Shown in pieces: positions 24,837-41,655 of a stretch of 42,043 bases of DNA. Both the position numbers and the translations under genes were made by a program. Position 1 is the first letter of the stretch; each line of letters begins with the position of its first letter. The stretch spans positions 1 through 42,043 of the forward strand of contig BAYV01000026.1 of the NCBI GenBank assembly GCA_000710935.1. The letters run 5' to 3'. The notes beneath the pieces are model-generated. The model did no database searches. It saw only the letters and a program-made list of their open reading frames with translations, and was not told where the DNA came from. The DNA comes from Iodidimonas nitroreducens (GTDB taxonomy: Bacteria > Pseudomonadota > Alphaproteobacteria > Sphingomonadales > Rhodothalassiaceae).

Positions 24837-24953
24837 ACCGCTCCCTCCGGGCCCCCCGATGATAAAAATTGATATCGCAAAGCGGCGGTCTTTTGGCTTT
24901 GCTGCGGGGGTGGTGTGCCGTGACCGAAAACAGCAAGTACTGGTAGTTATTCT

Positions 24954-25871
24954 ATGAACAAACCTCAAAGTCCGCGCAGGCCGCGCGGTCGTGGTCCGAA
25001 ACGCCCGAACAAGGGTGGGGGCGGTGGCCTTCGGAATGATAATCGGGCCCGGGGCAATCCAAAACAGGCGCTGGATAAATACAAGCTGATGGCCCGTGAT
25101 GCCTTGCAGTCTGGTGATCGCGTTTTGGCGGAATATTATTTCCAGCATGCCGATCACTATCAGCGTGTGGTGAATGAACGTTTTGGGGTGAGCCCGGTCG
25201 TCGATGATGATGAAGATGACGACGACGATGAAGACGATTATGATCTTCAGCAATCACAGCCTCGCAGCCAACAGCGTTCGCGCAGCCAGCGGGCCGAAGA
25301 TGCCGCATTGTCTGAGCAGGGCAATGCGGATCGATCCGAGCGTTTTGAACGGCCAGAGCGGCCAGAGCGTTTTGAACGGCCAGAGCGCTCAGAGCGTGCG
25401 GATCGCTCCGATGAGCATGTTTCAGAGGATGGGGATGCGGATGGCCGGGATCGTGGCCAGCGCCCGCGCCATGGCAATCGGCGGCGTCCGGCACCGCGCC
25501 GTAATGATGCAGAGGCTCCGCGCAGGGACCAACGAGATCAAGGGTATCAGGGGGATCAGGCGCGTCCTGATTTTTATGATCGCGCAGAAGAGGCGCCGAA
25601 ATCCGCACCGCAAGGCGAATTGCCCATGACTGCCGAGCGCGTGGTTGAGCGTCCGGCGGCGGATGATGCGCCAATTGCGGAAAAGCCTGCGCCGCGTCCG
25701 CGCAGAAAGGCCCCGGCGGCAAAGCCAAAGGCCGATGCAGCGGCTGAAGGTGAAAAGGCCGTGGCCAGCGAAAAGCCATCTGCCAATCTATCGGATGCAG
25801 AGAAGCCAAAGCCCCGCCGTCGGCGCAAACCGGTGGCAGATAAGGAAGAAGCCCCGGCGATTTCTGATTGA
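24954..25871 (+). CDS. DUF4167 domain protein with repetitive charged tail
   Basis: A 305-residue protein. The N-terminal head (residues about 1-80) is basic and Gly/Arg-rich (RRPRGRGPKRPNKGGGGG) and then matches the DUF4167 core (NPKQALDKYKLMARDAL, RVLAEYYFQHADHYQRVVNE). The rest is disordered: an acidic run of Asp/Glu at about 84-97, an Arg/Glu/Phe/Pro repeat at about 122-148, and an Ala/Lys/Pro-rich basic end (RRRRK). The basic head and tail suggest nucleic-acid or ribosome binding, which is inference only. The prmC-DUF4167-clpB order is common in alphaproteobacteria. The long antisense frames over this gene are artefacts of its composition. Confidence 0.9.
   Translation: MNKPQSPRRPRGRGPKRPNKGGGGGLRNDNRARGNPKQALDKYKLMARDALQSGDRVLAEYYFQHADHYQRVVNERFGVSPVVDDDEDDDDDEDDYDLQQSQPRSQQRSRSQRAEDAALSEQGNADRSERFERPERPERFERPERSERADRSDEHVSEDGDADGRDRGQRPRHGNRRRPAPRRNDAEAPRRDQRDQGYQGDQARPDFYDRAEEAPKSAPQGELPMTAERVVERPAADDAPIAEKPAPRPRRKAPAAKPKADAAAEGEKAVASEKPSANLSDAEKPKPRRRRKPVADKEEAPAISD
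25338..25391 (+). repeat. 27-bp in-frame tandem repeat in the DUF4167 gene
   Basis: Two units at 25338-25364 and 25365-25391 share their first 23 bases exactly and encode ERFERPERP and ERFERPERS. Further degenerate Glu-Arg units follow. The unit length is a multiple of three, so expansion preserves the frame. Confidence 0.85.
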
Positions 25872-25927
25872 TCGTCGGGTGCGATCCTGATCTCGCGTGC
25901 ATTCGCTACGCTCATGGCTAATCCCAT

Positions 25928-26350: not shown

Positions 26351-28960
26351 ATGGATATCGAACATTATACTGATCGGTCCAGAGGTTTCATTCAATCGGC
26401 CCAAGGCCTTGCCATCCGCTCCAATCATCAGAAATTCACTCCCGAACATCTGCTGAAGGTTTTGCTGGATGACAAGGAAGGCCTTGCTGCCAATCTGATC
26501 CGGGCTGCCGGAGGGCGGCCTGAGCAGGCATTGGACGCAACCGAAGCCGCTCTTGCCAAAATCCCTAAGGTGGAAGGATCGGGCGCGGGGCAGATTTATC
26601 TGGACCCGGCCCTGGCCCGGATTTTTGAAAGTGCGGAAAAGCTGGCCGAGAAATCGGGTGATCGTTTTGTGACAGCGGAACGCCTGCTGCTATCCATGGC
26701 CACCGAAACGAAATCCACCTGTGGGCGGATTCTGGCCGATGCCGGGCTGACCGCGCAGGCGCTGAATGCCGCCATCAATGATGTGCGCAAGGGTCGCACC
26801 GCCGATAGCGCCGGGGCGGAAAACAGCTTCGAGGCGCTGAAACGTTATACCCGCGATCTGACCGAGGCCGCACGCGATGGTAAGCTGGACCCGGTGATCG
26901 GCCGGGATGAGGAAATCCGCCGCACCATTCAGGTGCTTTCACGGCGGACCAAGAATAATCCGGTGCTGATCGGTGAGCCGGGCGTGGGCAAAACCGCCAT
27001 CGTTGAAGGCCTGGCCCTGCGTGTGGCCAATGGCGATGTGCCCGAATCCTTGCGCGATCGGCGGATCATGTCATTGGATATGGGATCCCTGATTGCCGGG
27101 GCGAAATATCGCGGTGAATTTGAAGAGCGGCTGAAGGGTGTTCTGGATGAGGTGACGGGTGGCGCTGGGGATGTGATATTGTTCATCGATGAAATGCATA
27201 CCCTTGTGGGCGCGGGCAAAAGCGATGGGGCCATGGATGCCTCCAATCTTTTGAAACCGGCTTTGGCCCGGGGTGAATTGCACTGCATCGGGGCCACTAC
27301 ACTTAATGAATATCGCAAATATGTTGAGAAGGATTCCGCGCTGGAGCGCCGGTTTCAGCCTGTTTTTGTGGGCGAACCCACGGTTGAGGATACCGTTTCC
27401 ATTTTGCGCGGGCTGAAGGAAAAATACGAGCTGCATCATGGGGTGCGGATCACCGATGGGGCGATTGTGGCGGCGGTCACTTTATCGAACCGCTATATCA
27501 CCGATCGGTTTTTGCCCGATAAAGCGATTGATCTGATGGATGAAGCCTCGGCCCGGCTGAAGATGGAGGTGGAAAGCAAGCCCGAGGAGATCGAGGCGCT
27601 GGACCGCCGGATCATTCAGCTTAAGATCGAGCGTGAAGCCCTAAAAAAAGAGAAGGATGAGGCATCGCGGGATCGGCTGAATAATCTGGAAAAGGAACTG
27701 GCCGATCTATCGCAATCGAGCGCGGAATTAACGGTACGCTGGCAATCCGAGAAGGAAAAGCTGACCGGCTCGCAAAAGCTGAAGGAACAGCTTGATCAGG
27801 CGCGGCTGGAATTGGAACAGGCGCAAAGGCGCGGCGATCTGGGCCGGGCGGGGGAATTGTCTTATGGCATTATTCCCGATCTGGAAAAGCGCATTACCAA
27901 AGCCGAGCAAAGCGCCGATGGCAGCCCCGAAGGTTTGCTGCGTGAGGAAGTGACGGCGGATGACATTGCCGGGATCGTTTCGCGCTGGACCGGGATTCCC
28001 ATGGAAAAAATGCTGGAAGGCGAGCGCGACAAGCTTTTGCGCATGGAAGAAGGGCTGGGCCGCCGCGTGGTGGGGCAGGAAGAAGCCATCACCGCCGTTT
28101 CCAATACCGTGCGCCGGGCGCGGGCGGGTTTGCAGGATCCGAACCGGCCTTTGGGATCGTTCCTGTTTTTAGGGCCGACCGGGGTTGGCAAAACCGAACT
28201 GACCAAATCTTTGGCGCATTTTCTGTTTGATGATGAACAGGCGATGGTGCGGATCGATATGTCGGAATTTATGGAAAAACATGCGGTTTCCCGGTTGATC
28301 GGGGCGCCGCCGGGCTATGTGGGCTATGAAGAAGGCGGGGTTTTGACCGAAGCGGTGCGCCGCCGCCCTTATCAGGTGATTTTGTTTGATGAGGTGGAAA
28401 AAGCCCATCCGGATGTTTTCAATGTGCTGTTGCAGGTGCTTGATGATGGGCGGCTCACCGATGGGCAGGGCCGCACGGTGGATTTCAGCAATACGCTGAT
28501 CATTCTCACCTCCAATCTGGGAAGCGGGGCGATTGCCGCCTTGCCCGATGGGGCCGATGTGGAAGAAGCCCGCGATCAGGTGATGGAGACCGTGCGCGGG
28601 GCTTTCCGGCCGGAATTTCTCAACCGGCTGGATGATGTGATTCTGTTTCATCGGCTCGCCCGCAATCAAATGGCCGGGATTGTGGATATTCAATTGCAGC
28701 GGGTGCAAAAGCTGCTGGATGATCGCAAGATCAGGCTGGAACTGGATGATGCGGCGCGCAATTGGCTGGCAGAGGCGGGCTATGATCCCGTTTATGGGGC
28801 GCGGCCCCTAAAGCGCACGATCCAAAGGCAGGTGCAAAATCCACTGGCCGAAATGATCCTGCGTGGTGAAGTGAAGGATGGCCAGACGGTGAAGGTGGGC
28901 GTTGGCGATGGCGGGCAATTGGCGCTTTCCTTGAGAAACCCGCAGGACAAAGCCGCCTGA
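26351..28960 (+). CDS. clpB: ATP-dependent chaperone ClpB (Hsp100 disaggregase)
   Basis: An 869-residue full-length ClpB. The order is: N-terminal double Clp_N domain (1-145), first AAA+ domain with Walker A GEPGVGKT (208-215), coiled-coil middle domain (about 405-525, with the repeated Glu/Lys/Leu pattern), second AAA+ domain with Walker A GPTGVGKT (608-615), and the C-terminal D2-small domain. With DnaK/DnaJ it extracts and refolds aggregated proteins. Presence of the middle domain and absence of an IGF loop separate it from ClpA and ClpC. It is preceded by a heat-shock promoter and followed by a bidirectional terminator. Confidence 0.98.
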
Positions 28961-28996
28961 AAACACCGGCTGAAAACACCGGCTGAAATCGCCGCC
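28958..28996 (+). repeat. 13-bp tandem repeat starting at the clpB stop codon
   Basis: TGAAAACACCGGC occurs twice exactly (28958-28970, 28971-28983) and a third time with changes (28984-28996). The first TGA is the clpB stop. Since 13 is not a multiple of three, successive units place TGA in each reading frame. Confidence 0.85.
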
Positions 28997-29035
28997 TGAA
29001 AAGCGATGAGCCTGACACCGGATTGAGACGGTGCC

Positions 29036-29077
29036 AAAAAAAACAGCCCGCCCCCCATCAGGGAGCGGGCCTTTTTT
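29036..29077. terminator. Bidirectional terminator between clpB and TonB receptor 1
   Basis: A 10-bp stem with one mismatch (29046-29055 with 29061-29070, 5-nt loop) is followed by CTTTTTT on the plus strand and preceded by an A8 run that becomes the T-run on the minus strand. It closes both convergent transcripts. Confidence 0.85.
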
Positions 29078-29095
29078 GTGCAATCCTCGAAAGGA

Positions 29096-32000
29096 TTAGA
29101 AGCGGGCGCTGGCCCCAACAAAGAAACGACGACCAAAGAAGTCGAAGATGTTGTTTTCAGCAAACCCCGGTGGCTCACGATCGAAAGCATTCGTGATACC
29201 GCCACGGATCGTATAATTCTCAAGGAAATCATAGGTGATATTGAAATCATGCTGCGAGAAATCACCCGTGAAGGCAAAGGGTGAATTCAACTGATCTTCC
29301 GTGGAGAAGAAGCTGTCTTCATCAAAAATCCGCTGTGAGCTTTGCCAGTTGAGCTGATGCCCAATGGTCAAAGGTCCGCGGTTCCATGATGTGTTGAGAT
29401 TGAAGCGATAGGTTGGCGTTCCCAATTCGCCTTCGCTCATATTCAGCGTTGTCGGATCAGACGGATCGGTTTGATCATTTTGCTTGAGAAGAGCGGTCCC
29501 TTGAACACGAATGCGAAGATTACCAAAATCAAAATTTGAATTGAAAGCCGGCTGCAGCCATTTGTTCAATTCGGTTTGATAAAGGGCTTCAAAGTCAACA
29601 CCACGAACCTTGAATTGCGCCGTGTTCACAGGCCCTTGGATGAAATCGATGATTTCATTTGTGTTGGCATCGCGTGTGAAAAGATTGCACAGATTTTCTG
29701 CCGGACCACCCGCAGCATCAAAACAATCATCAACGATGGTTTGAATGCCGATTGTCTGGATCGCATCATCAATCTTGATGTCGAAGAAATCTGCCACGAG
29801 CGTGAGGCCAGGAACCCAACGTGGGGTGATTGTGGTGCCCACAAAATAGCTGCGCGAGGTTTCTTCTTCAACAAAAGGATTGCCGCCATTCGCGCCCGGA
29901 TTGCTGATATTGGGGTTGGGATCAACGAAATCAGCAGGAACACCCAAAGCCTGGCAGTTGGCAATGCGATTTGCCGCAACCGAGGGATCTTCATTCAGAT
30001 TTTCCTGCGAGCAGGGATCATCGATCTGAATAAAGGTTTGGGCCGGGGCCTGGAACAATTCCCCGATATTGGGGGCACGAACAGATCGGCTGCGGCCCCC
30101 GCGGAACACAACATCATCCACAGGACGCCACACACCTGATGCAGACCATGTTGTGGTGGCCCCAATGGTGGAATAATCCGACTGACGCACAGACCCGGTG
30201 ATCTGCAGATCCTTGATCAGGAACATATCCTTGATCAGGGGAACATTCACTTCGGCATAACCTTCATGCACATCAAAGCGCCCAAAGGTTGGGTTGATAG
30301 CATTGGAGAAGCTATCCACAACCAGTGGAAGGGCATCAGGCCGTGTTTCGGAATCTTCACGGCGATATTGATAGCCCATGGCAACGCCGATATCCCCTGC
30401 GCCGGTCAGATTGAACAAATCACCAGACCAGTTGGCCGACACGATCAATTGTTCTGTTTTGGATTTGTCATTCAGATCGACAGACGCAAAATCAATGGCT
30501 TCCTGTGAAAGCGAATTGACACCAAAAATATTGCCGGCAACGCAATTATCGATGGTATTTTGCGACACTGCACCCACACCATTGATGGTGGTGGGAAGCC
30601 CTGCCTGTTCAAGAAATTGAACACGACAAACAATATCGCCCACATCAAATGTTGGCGTATTCCCAGCGGCTTCAATAGCAGCAATATCATCCTCATTGAT
30701 CTGGATGGCATCGATGGATGCAAAGAAATTGGGATTCAGGCGAGAATTTTGTTGCCGGTTGGTGGCATCATCACGGCTGAAGTTTACCGCAACATCCCAA
30801 TTCCATTCCTTTTCAATGATCGGCAGTTTGTATTCGCCTTCAAATCCACCCACAAAGCGGAATGTTTGGCGGGTTGCATTCTGCCCCCGATTGAATTCAG
30901 ACATGAAACGCTGGATATTGCCGATCCCAAAGCCATTATCAATGGCTTGGCCCACAACCGGATCGAGGAAAGCATTGTCGGTACCTGTGAAGGCGCCGAT
31001 ATTAAAGGTTTCGGCTGCAGTTGGCAGTGTGCGATCAGCATTGGCCGTGGCAATTCCGTTTGGCGCCCCAGAGAAGAAGGAGGGCTGGAACGTGAATTGC
31101 GAATCGATATAGGTGTATTTCATATCGACGAAGGTTCTGAAACCATCCGCAATTTCAAAGTTTGATTTGGCCTGAATATTATAGGTTTCACTATCGGGCG
31201 TAAGGGAAGCCTGCAACTCATTAACTAGGACACCGGTGCCGCCAATCTGAGTGGTTCTGGGAAGGCCAGCCGATTCGGGATCATCGCTGAAGGGCAATTG
31301 CGTACCGGGATTGAAGGGAATGGCTTGGCCATTCGCCCCGAATTCAAACTGCCCGGCATTGGTGAATGTGTTGACCAGGCCGCCGTTGGTGATGATGTTC
31401 AAAACAGCATTTTCGGTCAGAAAGAAATTGGGAACACCATCCGATGGGGCGAAATCAGGGACCCCATCACCATCGGTATCCACCGTGACCGCATCCTGAT
31501 CAACCGTTACAAGTGCGCGATTGCGATTGAAGAAATCGAGATCTGTTTGCAGGATTTCTTCATTCTGGCGATATTCAAAGGCAAGCATGGCATTGCCTTT
31601 GTTGTTGGCAAAATTGCCACCCATAATGCCTGAAAAACGTGCGGATTGCCCTTCGCCATTTTCATCTATTGCAAACTGACCATCAAGTTCCAGCCCTTCA
31701 AAATTTTTGCGGAGCACAAAATTGACCACGCCAGAAACGGCATCGGCCCCATAGATGGAGGAGGCACCGCCGGTCAGAACTTCGGTCCGTTCAACCATCA
31801 GAAAGTTCAGGGTATCAATATTCACCGCAGCCGTGCCGGGATCGGACCCGACCTGACGGCGACCATCAATGAGCGTAAGTGTGCGTTGCTCGCCAAGCTG
31901 ACGCAGATTCAGCAGGCTCAGGCCCGATGTGCCGAGAACAGCGCCTGTGGTATCATCAGGAACCTGAGATCCCTGCAGAGCCGGAATATCGCTTAAGAAA

Positions 32001-32254
32001 TCGGCCAGATTGTTGAAGCCAGAGAGTTTGACGGCATCGCCATCAATGGACAAAACCGGACTGGCTTCCATGCCGGGGGCACGACTGATGCGTGAGCCGG
32101 TGACCACGATTTCTTCAACTTCGAGCGCTTCTTCGTCTTCTTCGTCCGTTGATTCCTGCGACCAGACGGCGCTTGACGTCATCGCCAGAATGCCGATGGA
32201 CGAAGCGGCAAGCAGCCTTAATCGTCTGCTTTTCTTTAAATCTTGCGGGTGCAT
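29096..32254 (-). CDS. TonB-dependent receptor 1 (large outer-membrane transporter)
   Basis: A 1052-residue TonB-dependent receptor. It has an N-terminal signal peptide (about 1-33, basic then LRLLAASSIGILAMTSS), an acidic stretch, a TonB-box-like EEIVVTGSRISR, a plug with GASSIYGADAVSGVVNFVLR, and a 22-strand barrel ending in the outer-membrane signature FFVGASARF. Such proteins import siderophores, cobalamin, oligosaccharides or peptides; the substrate cannot be read, and the large size with long extracellular loops is typical of alphaproteobacterial carbohydrate or peptide receptors. ATG 32254 has a perfect AGGAGG 6-7 nt upstream; the ATG at 32272 lacks one. Base composition is lower in GC than in the housekeeping genes. 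Confidence 0.94.
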   Translation of the reverse strand: MHPQDLKKSRRLRLLAASSIGILAMTSSAVWSQESTDEEDEEALEVEEIVVTGSRISRAPGMEASPVLSIDGDAVKLSGFNNLADFLSDIPALQGSQVPDDTTGAVLGTSGLSLLNLRQLGEQRTLTLIDGRRQVGSDPGTAAVNIDTLNFLMVERTEVLTGGASSIYGADAVSGVVNFVLRKNFEGLELDGQFAIDENGEGQSARFSGIMGGNFANNKGNAMLAFEYRQNEEILQTDLDFFNRNRALVTVDQDAVTVDTDGDGVPDFAPSDGVPNFFLTENAVLNIITNGGLVNTFTNAGQFEFGANGQAIPFNPGTQLPFSDDPESAGLPRTTQIGGTGVLVNELQASLTPDSETYNIQAKSNFEIADGFRTFVDMKYTYIDSQFTFQPSFFSGAPNGIATANADRTLPTAAETFNIGAFTGTDNAFLDPVVGQAIDNGFGIGNIQRFMSEFNRGQNATRQTFRFVGGFEGEYKLPIIEKEWNWDVAVNFSRDDATNRQQNSRLNPNFFASIDAIQINEDDIAAIEAAGNTPTFDVGDIVCRVQFLEQAGLPTTINGVGAVSQNTIDNCVAGNIFGVNSLSQEAIDFASVDLNDKSKTEQLIVSANWSGDLFNLTGAGDIGVAMGYQYRREDSETRPDALPLVVDSFSNAINPTFGRFDVHEGYAEVNVPLIKDMFLIKDLQITGSVRQSDYSTIGATTTWSASGVWRPVDDVVFRGGRSRSVRAPNIGELFQAPAQTFIQIDDPCSQENLNEDPSVAANRIANCQALGVPADFVDPNPNISNPGANGGNPFVEEETSRSYFVGTTITPRWVPGLTLVADFFDIKIDDAIQTIGIQTIVDDCFDAAGGPAENLCNLFTRDANTNEIIDFIQGPVNTAQFKVRGVDFEALYQTELNKWLQPAFNSNFDFGNLRIRVQGTALLKQNDQTDPSDPTTLNMSEGELGTPTYRFNLNTSWNRGPLTIGHQLNWQSSQRIFDEDSFFSTEDQLNSPFAFTGDFSQHDFNITYDFLENYTIRGGITNAFDREPPGFAENNIFDFFGRRFFVGASARF

Positions 32255-32538
32255 TCTATCCCTCCTCAACACTATTATTGTTACTGATAGTCCCGCGCTG
32301 GCGTGAAATTTTATTTCATTTTTTTATCTTGTCATCGTGAAGTGCGGCTTTTTCTGATGCCACTACTCGACAGGAAAAAAGCCATGCTTTGTCTCAGTTG
32401 TAAACCTGCAGAGAATGCCATTCCTGAATATAGTTTTTCCTGTGACAATTTGGTCACAATTATGGCGCCTGGAAAGCCATTGTCATAATTGGAATGGCGC
32501 TGCATTAAATGGATAGCGATGCCGAAAAAGTGGATCGG
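32255..32538. other. AT-rich gap upstream of TonB receptor 1
   Basis: These 284 nt contain no gene. Next to the receptor lies an inverted repeat TGAAAT (32304-32309) / ATTTCA (32313-32318) with a 3-nt loop, about 50 nt before the start codon, a position suited to an operator. The rest is T-rich with no further clear signal; the receptor promoter should be here. A tRNA or rRNA is not seen. Confidence 0.45.
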
Positions 32539-33171
32539 TTAATTTGATACCGGGCTGATTTCAAATAGCTTTTCATAATTGGGAAGCTTCATCCGCCATT
32601 GGCCGAGGAAATTTTTGCTAAGGACGACCGTTTGACCATCTGGTTCAATTCCAGCAGGCATTTTGCGACCCGCACTTTCAAAAACGAAGCCTTCGCTGAT
32701 GCGGATTTTGAAATCGCCCACACTGTTGGAATTGTATCCTGTGATTGTGGTGGTTAAGGGCAGAGCCAGATCATCGGCGCTGGCTTCACGCTCCACCACG
32801 CGGCCTCGGATCACATCACCCTGCCTTATGGTGCTGGATTCGTAAGCACCTTCGTTGGTGATATTGCTGTCCAGACCTTCCTCCCCAACCCGCCCTTGGG
32901 GCACGGCGCGGGGGCTGGTGATCTGGCGCGGCCTGTCGCGTTCAGCCTCGGCGATGGCTTCGGGTGTCGCTTCGATCAGGCCATAGCGGATCTTGTATTT
33001 CTTGAGCAGGCTGTCATAGCAGCCAAGGCGTTCGGCAGCGATGATCAGGGGATCGCAGGACAGAAAATCCGACAGCACATTTTGCGCCGTATCCGTGCGG
33101 TTTTGTGCTGCGGCGGAAAAAAGGGGCGCTGTGCAGCACAGCATGCTTATTGCAATGAGGGGGCGGCGCAT
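32539..33171 (-). CDS. Secreted protein of the ERLxCYD type, unknown function
   Basis: A 210-residue protein with a cleavable signal peptide (MRRPLIAISMLCCTAPLFSAAAQ). The mature N-terminus has SCDPLIIAAERLGCYDSLL: two cysteines about 12 apart around the (A)ERLxCYD signature found in small periplasmic proteins of proteobacteria. The middle is polar. The C-terminal part (LPLTTTITGYNSNSVGDFKI onward) appears to be a small beta domain. The same plan recurs in the protein at 39461-40045. It lies upstream of TonB receptor 1 on the same strand, 284 nt apart, and may or may not share a transcript. I do not recognise a function. Confidence 0.72.
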   Translation of the reverse strand: MRRPLIAISMLCCTAPLFSAAAQNRTDTAQNVLSDFLSCDPLIIAAERLGCYDSLLKKYKIRYGLIEATPEAIAEAERDRPRQITSPRAVPQGRVGEEGLDSNITNEGAYESSTIRQGDVIRGRVVEREASADDLALPLTTTITGYNSNSVGDFKIRISEGFVFESAGRKMPAGIEPDGQTVVLSKNFLGQWRMKLPNYEKLFEISPVSN

Positions 33172-33297
33172 GGGGGTCTCGCTTTTTTCTGTTGCCTTTA
33201 TAATCTATCGATAACGCCCGCGCGCGCGGCTGTAAATGATGCGCATTGACAGTTTGGGGGGACTCTGTGCTTTTCTGAGGATCGACAGACCGATCCA

Positions 33298-35133
33298 ATG
33301 GTGGATTTGCCCATGACGGCTTCACACACGGCGCTTTCCCAAAGCCTGCAAACCGCCCTGTCCATGGCACAATCGGGCCGCTTGGGCGAGGCGGAGGCGA
33401 TTTTATCACGGCTATTGGAGCAATGGCCCGATCAGCCCGATGCTTTGCAATTGATGGGTTTGGTAAAGCGCGGGCAGGGGGATCAGATTGCGGCCATAGA
33501 GTTTTTTCAACGCTCTTTGGCTTTGAACCCCGCGCAGCCTCATGTGTTGAACAATCTGGGCAATGCGCTTTTGGCATCTGCCCGCCGGGATGAAGCCGTG
33601 GCGGCTTATCGGCGGGCCATTGTCCTTGATGCGGATTATGCCGATGCACGGCTTAATTTAGGGCGAATTTTGCTTGATGACGGGTATCTTGATGAGGCGA
33701 GGCAGGTGCTGGCGCAGGCGACAAAACTTGCACCGGGCAGCGTGAAGATCTGGTCTGCTTACGGCCGAGCCTTGCGGGCCCTGGCGGATTATGAACAGGC
33801 GGTGGCGGCATTTGAACAGGCTTTGCGGATCAAGCCCGATCATGTGCCCGCCCTCCATAATCTGGCAGTCACCCATTTCGTGGCCGGGCGGGCGGAACAA
33901 TCCCTTCAATTGCTCGATCAATGTTTGGCGCGGCAGCCTGATCTGGCTCTTGCCCATTATAATCGGGGCCATGCCCTTTATGAATTGGGGCGGACCGATG
34001 AAGCCATCCAAAGCTATGAACTGTGCATTGCCCTCGCCCCCGATTATCGCGAAGGCCATGATACCCTGAACAAGCTTTTCTGGCAGCATGGGATGGGCGA
34101 TCATTATCTGAAAAGCTATCAAACGGCGCTGCAAAAAGTGCCGCAGGCTTTGGATTTATGGATTGATTGGGCTGATAAGCTGATTTTGGCCGAGCAGTGC
34201 GCCGAGGCCGTGGCGGTGGTGGCGGGGGCTTTGGATCAGGGCCATGATGATGCCCGGCTTTCCCATGTTTTGGGGCGGGCCCTGATGGGCATGGGGCAAT
34301 ATGGTAAAGCGCAAACCGCCCTCATTGATGCCACGGATCGGCCTGATGCACCTTTGGCCGCCGTCCTTGATCTCTCGCGCTGTTGCCTTCTGGCTAAATC
34401 CTACAGGGAAGCAGAGCAAGCCGCCGAAAAAGCCCTGCGCCGGGCCCCTTTGGATCAGGAAGCGCTGGCTTGGCGCGCTCTTTCCTGGCGGTTTCTGGGT
34501 GATGCGCGGGAGCCTGATCTCAATAATTATGAACGCTTCATCGGGGTGTTCGATCTGCCCGCCCCGCCCGGATATGCAAGCATTGAAGCTTTTAATGAAA
34601 GGCTGGCCGCCTGTTTGCGGGATTTGCATAAAGCTCATCAGCACCCCATGGAGCAGACCCTGCGTGGCGGATCGCAAACCATGGGCAGCCTGTTTTCCCG
34701 CGATCATCCGGAAATCCAGCAGGTTCGCGCCTTGTTCGAGGCGGCGATCAAGGCTTATATCAAAGCCCTGCCTGATGATCCGGCGCATGTGTTTTTAAAT
34801 CGCAAATCCCGGAATTTCAGCTTTTCGGGGTCCTGGTCGGTGCGCCTTCATCGCCATGGCTTTCATGTGAACCATGTGCATGCCAAGGGCTGGATCAGTT
34901 CGTGTTATTATGTGGAACTGCCGCCCTCCACCCATCAGGGTGATGGCCAGCAGGGCTGGATCAAATTTGGCGAATCAAGCCTTGGCCTGGGCGGAGTGGA
35001 TGCCATCCAGCGGGTGATCCAGCCCAGGCCCGGCCGTCTGGTCTTGTTTCCATCCTATTTCTATCACGGCACCATCCCTTTCGATGATGAGGCCGAACGG
35101 CTGACCATTGCTTTTGATGTGGTGCCGGATTGA
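33298..35133 (+). CDS. TPR protein with C-terminal putative 2OG-Fe(II) oxygenase domain
   Basis: A 611-residue protein. Residues about 8-410 form consecutive TPR units (for example AEAILSRLLEQWPDQPDALQ, AAIEFFQRSLALNPAQPHVL, AVAAFEQALRIKPDHVPALH), a docking surface for protein partners. The C-terminal 130 residues match the putative 2-oxoglutarate oxygenase family PF13759: candidate metal ligands His526 and His528 in NHVHAKGWISSCYYVELP, His590 in FPSYFYHGTIPF, and Arg601 as a likely 2-oxoglutarate anchor. No signal peptide is seen, so it is probably cytoplasmic. ATG 33298 is listed; ATG 33313 has GGTGGA upstream. It lies between two TonB receptors on the opposite strand. The substrate is unknown. 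Confidence 0.85.
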   Translation: MVDLPMTASHTALSQSLQTALSMAQSGRLGEAEAILSRLLEQWPDQPDALQLMGLVKRGQGDQIAAIEFFQRSLALNPAQPHVLNNLGNALLASARRDEAVAAYRRAIVLDADYADARLNLGRILLDDGYLDEARQVLAQATKLAPGSVKIWSAYGRALRALADYEQAVAAFEQALRIKPDHVPALHNLAVTHFVAGRAEQSLQLLDQCLARQPDLALAHYNRGHALYELGRTDEAIQSYELCIALAPDYREGHDTLNKLFWQHGMGDHYLKSYQTALQKVPQALDLWIDWADKLILAEQCAEAVAVVAGALDQGHDDARLSHVLGRALMGMGQYGKAQTALIDATDRPDAPLAAVLDLSRCCLLAKSYREAEQAAEKALRRAPLDQEALAWRALSWRFLGDAREPDLNNYERFIGVFDLPAPPGYASIEAFNERLAACLRDLHKAHQHPMEQTLRGGSQTMGSLFSRDHPEIQQVRALFEAAIKAYIKALPDDPAHVFLNRKSRNFSFSGSWSVRLHRHGFHVNHVHAKGWISSCYYVELPPSTHQGDGQQGWIKFGESSLGLGGVDAIQRVIQPRPGRLVLFPSYFYHGTIPFDDEAERLTIAFDVVPD

Positions 35134-35170
35134 TCCTTGTCAAAAAGCCGGATCAGTTGAAGATCAAACA

Positions 35171-35202
35171 GGAAAAGGCGGGGAATGATCCCCGCCTTTT
35201 CC
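35171..35202. terminator. Strong bidirectional terminator
   Basis: A perfect 14-bp stem (35171-35184 with 35189-35202) with a 4-nt loop ATGA. The base of the stem contains the A4/T4 tracts on either side. It separates the convergent TPR-oxygenase gene and TonB receptor 2. Confidence 0.85.
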
Positions 35203-35224
35203 ATATCTATCGGGTGGCTCGGTC

Positions 35225-38200
35225 TTAGAAGCGAACCGTGGCACCCATGAAGAAGCGCGTGCCCAACACGTCGAAAGTGCTTGGGAAGGTGTTGGCCTGC
35301 TCCGAGGTGTCACCCACCAAGGGGGGCTTGTTGTCGAGGATATTATCGACACCGCCATAGATCTGCAGATTTTCCATCACATCATAAGTGGATGACAGAT
35401 CGAAATAATGCTGGCTTGCAAGCTTGGGTGCCGCAAGATCGGCAGGATCAACGGCCGGATCGAGCAATTGATCATCCCGGGTGCTGTCAATCCAGCGCCA
35501 ACGAACGCTGAGATTGAGCGGACCGGTGCGATAGGTCACGCGGCTGTTGGTCTTGAATTCCGGCAAAGGCTCACCGCAGGTATTACCGAAAGTACCGCCA
35601 CATTCGTCGATCCGATCAGCCAGTTCGGCCACCGGGGTGATATCGAAATTATTCAGCCAGGTACCGGCGAAGGAGATGTCAAGGCTGCTGGTTTCGCTCA
35701 AAAGCCCGCGGCCCAGATCCATAGTGTAGGCGATCTGAACATCGATCCCGTCGGTTTCGATCTTGCCGATATTCTCATTCAGAACTTCAACGAAATTGGG
35801 TTCCTGAATAACGCCATCGGGGCCACGATTAACAGCCTGACAGAAGGGGCTGTTGATATCCTGCACCACATTGAAACACAGATCGAGCACATTATTCACC
35901 GAACCGCCCAGCACGCTGATGGCACCATCAAGCTCGATATTATAGTAATCGACCGTGACGCTGAGGCCTGGAATGGCCCGCGGGGTGATCACCGCGCCCA
36001 CGGTGAAGGTATCCGATTCTTCTTCTTCAAGATCGGGATTGCCGCCAAAAAGACCCTGGATCTGCGTATTGGGCTGGATGGCCCCAAAGACGCTGCCATT
36101 CGGAACACCGCTGGCGACGCAGATATCACGCAGTGCCTGGGTGCGATCACTGGCCGAGCGATCAGAGCAGGGATCGGTAGCAGGTGGGAAGCCCTGTGAC
36201 TGGCCACCAAACAGTTCCTGCACATTCGGCGCCCGAACGGCATGCTGGAACTGCCCACGGAACATCACATCATCCGTAGCGCGCCAATCCACACCGCCAG
36301 CATAGGTCCACACACCGCCCACATTATCCAGATCATAATCGGAATAACGGAAGGCGCCGTTCAGCTCCACACGTTGGGCGAAGGGCAGATCGGCAATCAC
36401 AGGAACACGAACTTCGCCAAACAGTTCCCACACATCATAGCCACCCTGGGTGGGCTGACCGGCATTGAAGCCGACCACATCACCTGACGACAGGGCGAAA
36501 TCAGGGCTGAAGCGGGCCGAGACCGAGCGATATTCAAAGCCGAAAGCGGCCCCGGCGGTACCAGCAGGCAGATCGATAATATCACCGGAAATCACGCCCG
36601 ATGCCACCTGAAGCTGGGATTCTTCGACATTGGTTGCATTGATGCGGACAAAACCAGCCGCTTCAGGGGTGATATTGGGGCCGAAGATATTGATGGGAAC
36701 GCAGTCGCTCGAGGTATCGGCGCAGGCTGTGCCATCTTCATTGGTGAGCAGGGCCTGCTGGAAGCGGCTGCGCGAGACATTGCCGAACTGGCGTTGGGTA
36801 TTCAGTGTTCTGGAGAACATGTAATAGGCATCATAGGTCATGTTCTTGAACATGGTGTCGCTGAAATCACCCAGATCGCCACGCAGACCGGTGACCACCC
36901 GCCAGCTATTGCGTTCATCGAGATTCTGGCGCGGGCCCACTTCTTCCAAACGGCGACCGATGCCCAGAGTGGTTTGACCATCACCTGCGGTGCCAGCAAG
37001 GGTCAGGGTGCCGGGATTGATCAGATTGCCATCATCATCCCGTGTTGTGCCAGTGATCGTCCCTTCGCTCAGGTCGGTTTGGCGTAAAACTTCCTGTAAT
37101 TCGGGCGACAGGAAGGGATTGTTCACATTGAATAGGAAGTTGCCGGTGATGGGGGTGGGGGCAAGCTCGGTATTCACCCGGTTATTGGCAAAGGTGCCTT
37201 CGGCATAAGCTTCGATCTTATCATTGATATCAAAGCTGGCCATGGTGCCGATCAACCAGCGTTCCTGAGGAACCTGCAGGAAGTTGTCGGGCGCATAGTT
37301 GAACAGATCGCCCGGATTGTTGAACGGGCTTGCATTGCGGCCACTGTTATCGGGCAGGAAACCCAACCCGCCAAGGCTGCCAAGGTTGGCATTATTGAGG
37401 GCTGTGATGAGCCCGGGGCGCAGAGCCTGATTGACATCGCCCGCATTGGGGCCGGTGAAACGACCATTGGGAACGGAGGCCGAACCACCAGCGACCAGCG
37501 CCGGATTGCCATTGGCATCCACATTATCAATCAATGCATTGGTCGAGAAATCGCGGGCATCCTGCATCACAGGATCGCGATCGAAATAGTTCATGAACAG
37601 CACGACATTGCCGCGACCATCGGCGAAATTACCGCCCATGGTCAGATCGATATTGGCGCGATCCGCATCACCACGGCTGGTAATATCATATTGGCCGCCG
37701 AGCTCGATGCCTTGGAAATCATCCTTCAATTTGAAGTTGATGACACCGGCGATGGCATCGGAACCATAAACGGCGGATGCGCCACCGGTCACCACTTCGG
37801 TGCTTTCAATCAGCGCCGATGGAATGGTGTTCACATCGGTGATCTGATTGGCATCAAAGAACATATAGCGGCGATTGTTCACCAGGATCAGCGTGCGGGT
37901 GACACCCAAGCCACGCAGATCGAGAGTTGCCGCGCCGCCACCGGGATTGTTGGAAAAGGCGGTGGCCGCAGGAATGAGCTGGGGCATGGTATTGAGCAGC
38001 TGCTCAACGTTCACCGTGCCGGAAATCCTGAATTCTTCGGCGGTGACAACAGAAACCGGGCTGGAACTGGTGAGATCGGTGCGGGCAATGCGCGAACCGG
38101 TAACCACGATCTGTTCGATTTCGGCCACTTCAGAATTTTGCTGGGTTTGGGCCAGCGCAGAAACCGAGAGCAGGCTGCCAGCCAGCGCAGTGGCTGCACT

Positions 38201-38245
38201 GCCGAGCAGGAGGGCTCTGCGCTTCATGGGTCCGTTACGAGACAT
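35225..38245 (-). CDS. TonB-dependent receptor 2 (large outer-membrane transporter)
   Basis: A 1006-residue TonB-dependent receptor. It has a signal peptide (basic MKRRALLLGSAATALAG, cut near ALAQ), a TonB-box-like EQIVVTGSRIAR, a plug with SSPVSVVTAEEF, GASAVYGSDAIAGVINFKLK, and a barrel ending FFMGATVRF. The domain plan matches receptor 1, but the two are clearly different sequences, so they probably recognise different or related large substrates. ATG 38245 has GGAAG 6 nt upstream; ATG 38227 (MKRRALLLG) is possible. It uses the same minus strand as receptor 1, with the TPR-oxygenase gene reading between them. Confidence 0.94.
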   Translation of the reverse strand: MSRNGPMKRRALLLGSAATALAGSLLSVSALAQTQQNSEVAEIEQIVVTGSRIARTDLTSSSPVSVVTAEEFRISGTVNVEQLLNTMPQLIPAATAFSNNPGGGAATLDLRGLGVTRTLILVNNRRYMFFDANQITDVNTIPSALIESTEVVTGGASAVYGSDAIAGVINFKLKDDFQGIELGGQYDITSRGDADRANIDLTMGGNFADGRGNVVLFMNYFDRDPVMQDARDFSTNALIDNVDANGNPALVAGGSASVPNGRFTGPNAGDVNQALRPGLITALNNANLGSLGGLGFLPDNSGRNASPFNNPGDLFNYAPDNFLQVPQERWLIGTMASFDINDKIEAYAEGTFANNRVNTELAPTPITGNFLFNVNNPFLSPELQEVLRQTDLSEGTITGTTRDDDGNLINPGTLTLAGTAGDGQTTLGIGRRLEEVGPRQNLDERNSWRVVTGLRGDLGDFSDTMFKNMTYDAYYMFSRTLNTQRQFGNVSRSRFQQALLTNEDGTACADTSSDCVPINIFGPNITPEAAGFVRINATNVEESQLQVASGVISGDIIDLPAGTAGAAFGFEYRSVSARFSPDFALSSGDVVGFNAGQPTQGGYDVWELFGEVRVPVIADLPFAQRVELNGAFRYSDYDLDNVGGVWTYAGGVDWRATDDVMFRGQFQHAVRAPNVQELFGGQSQGFPPATDPCSDRSASDRTQALRDICVASGVPNGSVFGAIQPNTQIQGLFGGNPDLEEEESDTFTVGAVITPRAIPGLSVTVDYYNIELDGAISVLGGSVNNVLDLCFNVVQDINSPFCQAVNRGPDGVIQEPNFVEVLNENIGKIETDGIDVQIAYTMDLGRGLLSETSSLDISFAGTWLNNFDITPVAELADRIDECGGTFGNTCGEPLPEFKTNSRVTYRTGPLNLSVRWRWIDSTRDDQLLDPAVDPADLAAPKLASQHYFDLSSTYDVMENLQIYGGVDNILDNKPPLVGDTSEQANTFPSTFDVLGTRFFMGATVRF

Positions 38246-38330
38246 AGGCGCTTCCTTTTTGATTTTGCGGTCCGTAGAGAAAAAAATGCGAGTGCATCTT
38301 ATGCGACGCGTAAGATCACCTAAACGCGGT

Positions 38331-38344
38331 TGCCTGTACAGGCA
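38331..38344. promoter_or_regulatory. 14-nt perfect palindrome upstream of TonB receptor 2
   Basis: TGCCTGTACAGGCA is fully self-complementary and lies about 86 nt before the receptor start, in the 172-nt gap to the methyltransferase gene. The geometry suits a dimeric repressor or activator; no regulator gene is nearby to assign it. Confidence 0.4.
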
Positions 38345-38417
38345 TATAGAGTAGAATTCGGGGGCTATTCATCATTCTTTCATAAAGCTGTTGCCATGAT
38401 GCAACAAATACCCCGCT

Positions 38418-39464
38418 TTATGAGCGGTTTCCTGTCAGCCACCAGCCCAGCTTGATCTGCTGAGTGCCGAAAATGGCCGGTGAGATGGCGACTCTTCCCC
38501 CCCCATGTCTGTGCCTTCCATATCTGGCAAACAGATCGTGGAGCGCCCGGCCTTGGTCTTCATCATGGGCAGCGGCGAGCAGGGCCGATAAGCGCTGATG
38601 GCGAGCGGCGCGCTTCAGATCAATTTCATCGATCAGCGCTTTTATGGCGGCATCGTCGAGCTTGTGCCTTTGTTCGAACAGCCAGCCTGCGCTTTCCATG
38701 AAGGCCTTGAAGATATCGCCCGCGCCCAAAGCGGTTCCATCCCGCACCAGCCGGGCTACGGCGATGGCCAGGCTTTGGCTGGCTTCCCGGGCTTTGGCTT
38801 CCAGGGCATGGCTATCATGGGCATTCAATGTGCCGGATGCGCGGATATGCTGAACGCGCTGCTCCATGTCTTTGATCGCTGGGATTTGTTCGCGCATCAA
38901 GGCGATCAAGCCGCTGTCTTCGATCATCTGCAATTGCGCCATCTGCTGGCTGCTATGGGTCATCAGAACGCTATCTTTGGCATGGATCAGAAAGCGGAAA
39001 GCGCCGCGGGGGGCCAAGACCCGCAAAATTTCGGGAACGGCTTCATCAATGGGCGCATATTCAAGTGCATATTGGCCGCTGATGGCGGTGAAGGTGCCAT
39101 CATCAAAAGGCAGCTTTTGCATCAGGGTGCGGGGGTGAAAACGCACGTTCTGGAGAGCCTCGCCCCCTGTTTTCACATATTGAACAGGATCGATATCGGC
39201 GGCATCGACGGCATCAATCGTGAAATCCACCTTTCGCTCGCGGGCCGATTTCACCGCCAGTGCCGCCAGCGCCCCATTGCCGGTACCCACATCCAGAAGG
39301 CGGGTTTGGTTCGGCAGGCTGGCAAACCACGCCATCCATGCCGCATCGAGCGCCACCGCCGCATCGCCGCTGCCTGTGCTGTTTTGGGGGACACAGGATT
39401 GCAGCCGGTCGGCCTTCCAATAAAGATCCCAGGCCCAGCTTTGATGGTGCGAATTGCTGATCAT
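38418..39464 (-). CDS. Class I SAM-dependent methyltransferase
   Basis: A 348-residue protein with a Rossmann-type SAM domain: the motif I loop LLDVGTGNGALAALAV, the acidic motif II region (TIDAVDAADIDP), and SGQYALEYAPIDEAVPEILRVLAPRGAFRFL as motifs IV-VI. The C-terminal half (about 185-348) is mostly helical and not recognised. No signal peptide is present. Its ATG overlaps the stop of the secreted-protein gene by 4 nt (ATGA), so it is translated with that gene. The target (small molecule, lipid or protein) is unknown. Confidence 0.85.
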   Translation of the reverse strand: MISNSHHQSWAWDLYWKADRLQSCVPQNSTGSGDAAVALDAAWMAWFASLPNQTRLLDVGTGNGALAALAVKSARERKVDFTIDAVDAADIDPVQYVKTGGEALQNVRFHPRTLMQKLPFDDGTFTAISGQYALEYAPIDEAVPEILRVLAPRGAFRFLIHAKDSVLMTHSSQQMAQLQMIEDSGLIALMREQIPAIKDMEQRVQHIRASGTLNAHDSHALEAKAREASQSLAIAVARLVRDGTALGAGDIFKAFMESAGWLFEQRHKLDDAAIKALIDEIDLKRAARHQRLSALLAAAHDEDQGRALHDLFARYGRHRHGGGRVAISPAIFGTQQIKLGWWLTGNRS

Positions 39465-40045
39465 TGCAGCCGTTTCACACGAAAGCTGCGGCCATCGATG
39501 GTCATGATGAAATTGCTCATCACGCCTTTTTCAATATCGGCTTTAAGGCCCCCCTTGATCCTTGATAGTCGCTCGGTATCCACTTGTTGCCAGATCTGGC
39601 CATTTTCCATGCGGATGATCCATTGTCCGCGCAGGGTTTTTTCGGCACTCTCCACCGTCATGCTGCGCTCTTCATCGGATTGGCCTGGTTCCGGGCGCGG
39701 GGCAAAACCAAAGCGATCTTCCTGGCTTTGGCTGTCATCGCTTTGTCGTTCGGCTTTATTGCTCTCTTTACTGCTTTGGGTGTCGTCTTTGGGGGGCGGC
39801 ATCTGTCGGTCGAGAGTTTGTGACCGGTCCGACATCTCGATGCGGGATGCATCAAGCGCGATGCGATCAAAACAGGCCAGCCGCGCCGCATCCTGCGTGA
39901 TTTGCCGACAGGCCTGTATCTGCCCCGAAAGGCTATTGGGACGCTCGGGGTTTTGCGCTTGCGCCGGATGGGGCATGAGAGGGGCCAGCAGCAAAGCAGC
40001 GGCGGCAATCAGGGGCTGCCGGGGGCGGTTGAACGTGATAGGCAT
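39461..40045 (-). CDS. Secreted protein of the ARLxCFD type, unknown function
   Basis: A 194-residue protein with a signal peptide (core LIAAAALLLAPLM, cut near AQAQ). The mature start has ACRQITQDAARLACFDRIAL, two cysteines flanking the ARLxCFD signature; then a Ser/Asp/Gln/Lys-rich disordered stretch; then a small C-terminal domain with RGQWIIRMENGQIWQQVDTERL and a closing basic strand. The plan matches the protein at 32539-33171. It sits between the M23 endopeptidase and the methyltransferase on one transcript. The role is unknown; envelope localisation is predicted. Confidence 0.8.
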   Translation of the reverse strand: MPITFNRPRQPLIAAAALLLAPLMPHPAQAQNPERPNSLSGQIQACRQITQDAARLACFDRIALDASRIEMSDRSQTLDRQMPPPKDDTQSSKESNKAERQSDDSQSQEDRFGFAPRPEPGQSDEERSMTVESAEKTLRGQWIIRMENGQIWQQVDTERLSRIKGGLKADIEKGVMSNFIMTIDGRSFRVKRLQ

Positions 40046-40095
40046 GCCGGTTCCGTTTCAACTTGATAATAAAGGGAGGCCCTTTGTGCCTGCGA

Positions 40096-41655
40096 TCAAT
40101 CGGCTTTTGCCAGCAAAATCGCCTGCGCTCTTGAAAGGGCCAGACGATCTGCATCGGTTTGCTGCCGGGCCTCGATGAAGGCATCAAGGGCATCGGCGGT
40201 CAAAACCCGCCCGGATGGCAGTTTCAAGGTCAGCGGATCAACGCGCTCTTCGCCCATATAAACTTCATAATGCAGATGCGCCCCGGTGACCCGGCCGGTG
40301 GCCCCCACATAGCCAATGATCTGGCCCTGTTTCACCCGCACGCCCTGCTTGATGCCCCTGCCATATTTGCTGAGATGGGCATAAGCGGTTTTATAGGTGC
40401 CATTATGCCGGATACGCACATAATTTCCATAAGAGCCATAGCGGCTTGATCGCTCGATGATCCCATCGCCGGCGGCAAAAACCGGTGTGCCGGTGGGGGC
40501 TCCGAAATCAACCCCCTGATGCGAGCGCACATAGCCAAGCACGGGGTGCTTGCGCTTGCCGAATCGCGAGGTCAGCCGCGCTCCGTCGAGCGGGGTTTTC
40601 ATCAGGGCCTTGCGGACGCTTTTGCCGTTTTCGTCGAAATAATCCCAATCGCCGCTATCAGCCGGGGTGTGGCGATAAAGGGGTAGATCGCGTCCCCGCA
40701 GATTAAGCCGGGCATACAGAATCGCTCCATCTTCAATGGCCCCATCATCCTGTGCCATGGTGCGCTGATAGAGAATTTCGAATCGGTCGCCCGCCCGAAT
40801 TTCCCGCTGGAAATCGACATCAAAGCTGTAAAGCCGGATCAATTCCACAATCACCTCAGCAGGCACCCCCGCCGCCCGCGCCGAAAGATAAAGGCTGTCA
40901 TCAATGGTGCCGCTGCCATAAGCCAGCAAAGGGGTCACCTCAAGCGCTTCATTGCGCGCTTCATAGCGGCCATCGGCAAGGCGATCTGCGATGATCAGGC
41001 GATCATAGCTGGCACGCAGGGCAAGCGAGTTCAGGCTCAAGGCCTTTCCATCTGCCTCTAATGTGGCATCGATGATCTGGCCAATCGCCAGACGCCGCAT
41101 ATCATAATGCTTGGAAAGAGCCGTGATCGCCGCATGGGCCTGCGCCCGATCAATGCCTGCGCGCATCAGCGCTTCGGTCATGGTGTCGCCCCGTCCGATG
41201 GTGATGGTGCGGATGAAGGGCGCTGCCGATTGATCAGCGCTTTCGCTCTCTTTATGCCCCGCCATGATTGGGAAATATTGCGGGGTGGGGGCGGCGGCCC
41301 ATGGCCCCAGGCTTTCGGTTCTATCGGCCATATTTTTAGAATCAGCCGCTGTTTCAGCCGCATCCGCTAAAGCAGTCGCCTGATCAAAGCGCGTGCCCGT
41401 TGATGACAATCCAATGCCAAGGGCCAGGGCAAGCCCGGCCATTAATGTGGCAAGCCCGGCCCACCATGTGCGCTCGCCCTTGTTCCGCGACAGATCGATC
41501 ACCAGCGGCCAGGGTGCAGAGGCTGAAGCAGACGAACGCCGCCCCAGCCAGCAGTTTCGCGGGCCATGCCCCTTATGCTTATTGGCACGATTTCCGGCCT
41601 GATCATGAGGGCTATTCGATGCGTTATCCGTCACAGCAATCTCCTGAGCCTTCAT
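40096..41655 (-). CDS. M23 family peptidoglycan endopeptidase
   Basis: A 519-residue membrane-anchored zinc endopeptidase. The N-terminus (about 1-55) is cytoplasmic and polar; one transmembrane helix follows (WWAGLATLMAGLALALGIGL, about 65-83). A periplasmic region has an OapA/LysM-like segment (TITIGRGDTMTEALMRAGI...LAIGQIID) and then the M23 LytM domain. Zinc ligands are His379 and Asp383 in HQGVDFG and His462 in HLHYEV, with His460 as catalytic partner, so it should be active in cell-wall cleavage. This is the MepM-like plan. It is the first gene of a three-gene minus-strand operon; the gap to the next gene is 50 nt. Confidence 0.92.
   Translation of the reverse strand: MKAQEIAVTDNASNSPHDQAGNRANKHKGHGPRNCWLGRRSSASASAPWPLVIDLSRNKGERTWWAGLATLMAGLALALGIGLSSTGTRFDQATALADAAETAADSKNMADRTESLGPWAAAPTPQYFPIMAGHKESESADQSAAPFIRTITIGRGDTMTEALMRAGIDRAQAHAAITALSKHYDMRRLAIGQIIDATLEADGKALSLNSLALRASYDRLIIADRLADGRYEARNEALEVTPLLAYGSGTIDDSLYLSARAAGVPAEVIVELIRLYSFDVDFQREIRAGDRFEILYQRTMAQDDGAIEDGAILYARLNLRGRDLPLYRHTPADSGDWDYFDENGKSVRKALMKTPLDGARLTSRFGKRKHPVLGYVRSHQGVDFGAPTGTPVFAAGDGIIERSSRYGSYGNYVRIRHNGTYKTAYAHLSKYGRGIKQGVRVKQGQIIGYVGATGRVTGAHLHYEVYMGEERVDPLTLKLPSGRVLTADALDAFIEARQQTDADRLALSRAQAILLAKAD

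Follow-up and report, generated by a model that had tools for sequence, protein, structure and literature searches.

The gene P0001 of Iodidimonas nitroreducens (33298 to 35133, plus strand) encodes a 611-residue protein in which a tetratricopeptide repeat (TPR) superhelix is fused to a 2-oxoglutarate (2OG)-Fe(II) oxygenase domain of family PF13759, and it lies between two genes for TonB-dependent receptors (TBDRs). We analysed it within a stretch of 42,043 nt, hereafter the window, which comprises positions 1 to 42,043 of contig BAYV01000026.1 in assembly GCA_000710935.1. We found that the link between genes of this type and TBDR genes is non-random, and that receptors go with TPR genes carrying a modifying enzyme rather than with TPR or 2OG genes in general. 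Tentatively, and giving it a little less than an even chance, we propose that P0001 is a cytosolic, TPR-guided hydroxylase that modifies receptor polypeptides before their export.

The original prediction described two minus-strand receptors of more than 1000 residues around one plus-strand gene, and a fusion of about 400 residues of TPR to a PF13759 oxygenase. Both descriptions were borne out. P0002 (29096 to 32272, minus strand, 1058 aa) is divergent from P0001 and P0003 (35225 to 38245, minus strand, 1006 aa) is convergent with it, the open reading frames (ORFs) of P0001 and P0003 being 91 bp apart. Each receptor has a PF07715 plug and a PF00593 barrel, both above cut-off. TPR families match P0001 with a best E of 4.8e-36, and PF13759 matches residues 512-607 (E 3e-21) at 76.1 bits with the whole protein and 80.1 bits with the isolated domain, against a cut-off of 27. 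The structure model is confident, with a mean predicted local distance difference test (pLDDT) score of 95 for the whole protein and 93 for the oxygenase domain modelled alone. In the model, 23 helices form the superhelix (residues 6-400; 33313 to 34497, plus strand), followed by the oxygenase domain (residues 402-611; 34501 to 35130, plus strand). Because the start of P0001 lacks a hydrophobic stretch (best 15-residue hydrophobic mean 0.33, versus 1.6-1.8 in the receptors), the protein is probably cytosolic.

The putative active site is strictly conserved. His526 and His528 (34873 to 34881) and His590 (35065 to 35067), which the original prediction had named as candidate metal ligands, are invariant in all 86 aligned rows, as are Q460, G521, S534, G553, G558, T592, R601 and D607; H523 is kept in 79 rows. 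This count covered 24 positions, and the 86 rows represent 85 genes with the window's own entered twice. By analogy, we take Arg601 (35098 to 35100) to be the 2OG anchor. At E <= 0.01, the isolated domain matched PF13759 only, apart from PF13640 below its cut-off, with no match to PF05118.

The closest folds to the domain were 2rg4 and 3bvc (Z 18.6-18.7, 178-179 residues aligned, root-mean-square deviation (rmsd) 3.2-3.3; for 3bvc, Z 18.7 over 178 residues at 3.2). These chains of about 205 residues, deposited as uncharacterized, share with P0001 the 2OG-FeII_Oxy_5 (PF13759) family, the fold and an H-x-H at the aligned place, whereas P0001 adds the TPR region of about 400 residues and the receptor linkage. 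Below them, the best folds were mostly protein hydroxylases, and Foldseek was concordant. They include OGFOD1 (Z 16.0, 176 aligned, rmsd 3.4), the Pseudomonas putida prolyl 4-hydroxylase (P4H) solved with EF-Tu (Z 16.0, 165 aligned, rmsd 3.2) and PHD2 (Z 15.7, 171 aligned, rmsd 3.4), all at 15-17% identity to the domain; a weak or absent match in these searches rules out no family. The modelled domain resembles protein prolyl hydroxylases. We take the spacing of H526-x-H528, H590 and R601 to parallel that of the PHD2 ligands with His replacing Asp, and the order of ligand positions is presumably shared with OGFOD1 and P4H as well. On the metal site, which the original prediction had made a condition, the model shows a hydroxylase fold with invariant histidines, but the putative motif is H-x-H...H instead of what we take to be the H-x-D...H triad of the PHD/P4H type. 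We therefore claim only that P0001 may work like these enzymes.

The TPR arm matched PilF (Z 22.4, 220 aligned, rmsd 2.6), a consensus TPR (Z 22.4, 272 aligned, rmsd 4.7) and the TPR domain of O-GlcNAc transferase (Z 21.9, 343 aligned, rmsd 8.3). The TPR fold is common and by itself indicates no function. O-GlcNAc transferase nevertheless offers a parallel for the fusion: it couples a long TPR superhelix to a protein-modifying catalytic domain, and its TPR arm holds the protein substrates. It differs in its chemistry, and the match (Z about 21-22) has an rmsd of 8-10 over the longest alignments. Human AspH, of the PF05118 family, likewise combines helical repeats with a 2OG hydroxylase and acts on secretory proteins. 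Its oxygenase family is different, and bacterial PF05118 proteins are encoded beside, not within, the TPR-PF13759 gene.

Relatives of P0001 (E <= 1e-30) were present in 51 of the 99 genomes from the order and in 41 of 299 drawn from the phylum, 25 of these 41 matching the TPR part only. A scan of named species gave a single distant locus, which also matched only the TPR part. Stretches were fetched around the relatives with an oxygenase part and around eight of nine plasmid relatives; the linkage count left out the 25 TPR-only genomes, G016:C123 (TPR part only), G036 (a 3.2-kb contig, L024) and plasmid match H6, which is near H5. This gave 85 oxygenase genes, 72 of them flanked by 5 kb on either side; the 13 with short flanks, four of which had a receptor, were dropped. 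A TBDR lay within 5 kb of 55 of the 72 genes, within 2 kb of 47 and within 1 kb of 41, and a receptor-near gene was present in 48 of the 59 genomes or records. The homologues are therefore not scattered without receptor neighbours, the outcome that would have spoken against the original prediction, although 17 of the 72 lack one. Receptors had been counted in the genomes of 42 genes; among these, a TBDR was observed within 5 kb in 31 cases versus 4.3 expected, and within 1 kb in 22 versus 0.9, under the supposition of evenly spread receptors, with relatedness ignored and an approximate oxygenase span of 1830 bp.

The receptor neighbours themselves were rechecked. Strong receptor models supported 44 of the 55, and the 11 weaker cases comprised five confirmed by Pfam, three annotated as TBDRs, two that cluster with annotated receptors (L078, L082) and one at L058. 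At L058 (5175-7866), the receptor gene adjoining the TPR-oxygenase is split over several reading frames, with a partial barrel match. Where a receptor model reached at least 100 bits within 5 kb (48 genes), 29 pairs were convergent, 15 tandem and 4 divergent. These varied arrangements indicate that the linkage is not one inherited operon. The linkage spans Alphaproteobacteria to Alteromonadales (Pseudoalteromonas, Catenovulum). Croceicoccus marinus and Sphingobium sp. RAC03 have the convergent receptor/oxygenase pair in different surroundings; Pseudoalteromonas sp. NC201 has a TBDR, the TPR-2OG gene and an AspH-like gene in a row, and Catenovulum adriaticum has a TBDR, the TPR-2OG gene and a tryptophan halogenase amid sugar genes.

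How specific is the receptor linkage? We counted genes within 3 kb of a TBDR in four control genomes (G000, G034, G015, G004), with plug positions standing for the receptors; the chance that a position picked at random falls this close is 9-12%, as measured in three one-contig relatives. Sulfotransferases in frames of at least 500 aa, here termed TPR-sulfotransferases, were receptor-near in 10 of 11 cases, as against none of 10 in short frames (Fisher p 3e-5). TPRs were identified for nine of these 11, and one of the other two (G034 672344, a partial match to the sulfotransferase model) is the receptor-distant one. Since G034 alone contributes nine of the 11, this count is less independent. 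Tryptophan halogenases were receptor-near in 8 of 12 cases, one further match (G015, E 4.8e-4) having been left out of 13. Long-frame PF13759 genes were receptor-near in three of four cases, short ones in none of two, and PF05118 genes in none of two. The window's genome has two PF13759 genes besides P0001, in short frames (247 and 303 aa), and both are more than 3 kb from a receptor. In G034, G015 and G004, 9 of 11 TPR genes with either enzyme lay within 3.5 kb of a TBDR, versus 1 of 47 other TPR genes (p 5e-8). None of six PF13640 oxygenases in three genomes, a set to which the window genome's four matches do not belong, was near a TBDR, so the linkage is not shared by every 2OG gene. The counts for the other TPR genes and for PF13640 are the basis on which we conclude that receptors go with the combination of a TPR and a modifying enzyme.

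Other modifying enzymes occur at the same loci. In 25 stretches, profile models found a PF13759 gene together with another modifier class: PF13469 sulfotransferase, AspH-like PF05118, Sel1 plus PF13640, or PF04820 halogenase. A second model set added four further stretches (L058, L123, L124, L133). Of the 25, two (L043, L152) show no receptor, one (L066) shows it only by the second model, and L074, where the window genome's short PF13759 gene lies beside a short sulfotransferase, is not a receptor locus. Oxygenases of the Ofd1-like PF13661 type are present at L047 and L049 and also in Sphingomonas parapaucimobilis. The richest stretch, L049, holds an AspH-like gene, a receptor, a TPR-sulfotransferase, an Ofd1-like oxygenase, a TPR-PF13759 gene and clpB. 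A search limited to PMC open-licence full texts found no report joining TBDRs with TPR-2OG or TPR-sulfotransferase genes, which leaves room for one elsewhere in print.

The window's own genome (3.08 Mb, 108 contigs, 43 TBDR plug domains) also has a TPR-sulfotransferase and two tryptophan halogenases adjoining receptors (L106 11172-12458; L109 10742-12268; L099 3928-5487).

If P0001 acts on receptors, its TPR superhelix would engage the receptor in unfolded form, or a segment of it, ahead of Sec export. His526, His528 and His590 would hold Fe and Arg601 would hold 2OG, and the C-terminal domain would hydroxylate a side chain. P0001 would then belong to a group of interchangeable, receptor-linked enzymes that tune the receptor, the others being the TPR-sulfotransferase, the AspH-like, Sel1-P4H-like and Ofd1-like oxygenases, and the flavin halogenase. 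We favour modification of the receptor chain because the neighbouring genes that could identify a nutrient vary by locus while the receptor mostly stays, and because the enzyme probably resides in the cytosol and the characterised folds nearest to it belong to enzymes acting on proteins. We infer that the receptor polypeptide accounts better than a nutrient for what the loci share.

Several observations weigh against this proposal. No receptor lies within 5 kb of 17 of the 72 TPR-PF13759 genes, and the putative metal motif is H-x-H rather than H-x-D/E. Enzyme and receptor tree distances correlate weakly (45 pairs, r 0.19; the maximum of 3000 permutations was 0.29), and partner swaps within four multi-pair genomes were no worse (fraction 0.46). 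Seen from the receptor side, the link is weak: of 61 plasmid records with a relative of P0003, 10 annotated ones were inspected (one of them visible on one side only) and a single one has an oxygenase annotated nearby, and no modelled enzyme lies beside the P0003 paralogue in the window's genome. Many P0003-like receptors, then, have no linked enzyme. Two unannotated Pseudoalteromonas records have a TPR-oxygenase 643 bp from a P0003 relative. A TPR-PF13759 clade of about 570 aa (L070, L144-L149) has a receptor in view in none of seven rows, five of which have full flanks, and perhaps serves a different function. Since the distances correlate weakly, enzyme and receptor seem to have exchanged partners. 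A one-to-one partnership, which we considered, is disfavoured by the weak co-phylogeny with the nearest long receptor. The labels in this comparison used a narrower receptor list, with 53 of 85 genes adjacent versus 59 of 85 in the linkage count.

The receptor tree comprised 103 receptors, 59 next to an oxygenase and 44 not, 37 of the latter from the window's genome. The label "next to oxygenase" changed 12 times on this tree, versus a mean of 33 after shuffling, and 48 of the 59 adjacent receptors fell in one set of 54 rows that includes P0003. This clustering is indicative only, because a single genome supplied most of the non-adjacent rows. Other receptor lineages are also oxygenase-linked. 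Three Cys pairs of P0003 (508/515, 693/709, 790/802) occur in 92-100% of 49 oxygenase-adjacent receptors versus 23-30% of 44 others and are probably a feature of the receptor clade. We claim no modification site from the alignment columns of the adjacent receptors, as these pairs and other columns seem to follow the clade.

The ligand class of the receptors was also considered. Among the NCBIfam ligand-class models listed for P0002 (16) and P0003 (20), none reached its cut-off, and the best scored 69.3 and 78.5 bits, respectively, versus 316.85. The P0003 paralogue (L094 7848-12420) is 56% identical to P0003 and overlaps the start of a same-strand gene for a family-5 solute-binding protein, which hints that receptors of the P0003 clade can function in peptide uptake. 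At L165, the receptor has two hypothetical genes beside it, both PepSY-like. On Sphingomonas plasmids, P0003-like receptors at L163 and L164 lie beside 4-hydroxyproline epimerase genes.

What else could the enzyme modify? It might act on an imported nutrient or a catabolic intermediate, with a peptide as the likeliest ligand. An S9 peptidase (L065), a proline dehydrogenase (L063) and an amidohydrolase (L036) at receptor loci are in keeping with this idea, as are the solute-binding protein gene overlapped by the P0003 paralogue and the 4-hydroxyproline catabolism genes that adjoin two P0003-like receptors on Sphingomonas plasmids. Yet neither of these hydroxyproline loci has an annotated TPR oxygenase, and across loci the enzyme is constant while the catabolic neighbours (sugar, aromatic-ring and peptide enzymes) vary. 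The protein hydroxylases that dominate the folds below 3bvc and 2rg4 point away from a small molecule, which would presumably need no 400-residue TPR arm. We consider action on a nutrient unlikely. The original prediction had raised a shared nutrient substrate, which the varying neighbours and the lack of a hydrophobic start in P0001 leave unsupported; its coupling of receptors with a modifying enzyme is supported by the linkage and the predicted fold, so that its interpretation of the island is partly upheld. A different substrate could be a small secreted protein, modified before export and with the receptor as its partner. The candidate family is marked in most members by C-x8-14-C[YF]D near the N-terminus and GQ[IV]W near the C-terminus. 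It has two copies in the window, was found in 19 of the other 81 oxygenase stretches but in none of 39 receptor stretches from the window's genome, and its gene adjoins the oxygenase gene in L040, L044, L045 and L068. Its apparent absence from the remaining 62 stretches, and a distribution that partly tracks a slot between clpB and an M23 peptidase gene rather than the enzyme, make this quite improbable.

P0001 could instead sense 2OG, Fe or O2 status and regulate the adjacent receptors, hydroxylating a regulator or nothing at all. PHD-like domains serve oxygen sensing in eukaryotes, and regulators are found at some loci, such as a LysR protein at L056 and an NrsF-like anti-sigma protein at L036. 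These regulators vary between loci, however, a Pfam scan of P0001 gave no DNA-binding or output domain, and the TPR-sulfotransferases, which would make unlikely sensors, are equally receptor-linked. We rate a sensory role as a shade less probable still than the secreted-protein substrate. The genes might also be neighbours by positional hitchhiking in receptor-rich genomes, with no functional link. The 43 plug domains of the window's genome and a clpB slot common to several loci would allow for this, but not readily for 31 linked genes where 4.3 were expected, for 1 in 47 among other TPR genes, or for linkage in multiple orientations and with multiple receptor lineages. Such hitchhiking is very unlikely.

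Returning to modification of the receptor chain, the mix of enzymes at these loci raises a broader and more doubtful prospect, which we would not expect to hold in full. Proteobacteria may have a combinatorial system in which hydroxyl, sulfate or halogen is put on TBDR side chains before export by cytosolic hydroxylases and sulfotransferases with TPR or Sel1 docking arms, by AspH-like and Ofd1-like oxygenases, and by flavin halogenases. Such marks might change the ligand range of receptors or hide them from phages and bacteriocins. If receptors are the substrate, hydroxylation, sulfation and halogenation would form a layer of control over nutrient receptors in Proteobacteria. Mass spectrometry on the outer membranes of cultured relatives would test this idea directly. 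Should it fail, the rule that receptors go with TPR-bearing enzymes would still guide which genes annotated as oxygenases or sulfotransferases belong to receptor loci. The combinatorial system would also give receptor-linked halogenases their missing natural substrate. BrvH-type flavin-dependent halogenases may belong to the same enzyme set as P0001, the tryptophan halogenases being TBDR-linked too. According to the main text of the BrvH paper (PMC5945002), in which the word TonB does not occur, the natural substrate of BrvH is probably not indole.

The island of P0001 occupies a slot (26351-41655) bordered by clpB (26351 to 28960, plus strand) on one side and an M23 peptidase gene (40096 to 41655, minus strand) on the other. 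Within it, the gene for P0005 (32539 to 33171, minus strand), a predicted secreted protein of 210 aa and one of the two small-family members, lies in the gap between P0002 and P0001; it lies upstream of P0002 on the same strand, and its start looks like a signal peptide. The second member, of 194 aa, is encoded at 39461 to 40045 (minus strand) and has a weak PF11319 match below that model's cut-off. Besides the window, clpB is present in 13 fetched oxygenase stretches, and the mix of receptors, TPR-oxygenases, sulfotransferases and AspH-like genes in the slot varies. In S. parapaucimobilis (NZ_CP155752), an M23 peptidase, a small VasI-like gene, two receptors, an Ofd1-like oxygenase and clpB form a slot like that of the window, holding a different oxygenase. 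Outside the slot, at 24952-25902, a compositionally biased minus-strand ORF of 316 aa overlaps a plus-strand ORF of 305 aa, and a Pfam scan gave no match there. In keeping with a probable alphaproteobacterial host, the ClpB encoded in the window shares about 73-75% identity with alphaproteobacterial ClpB in the best eight plasmid rows.

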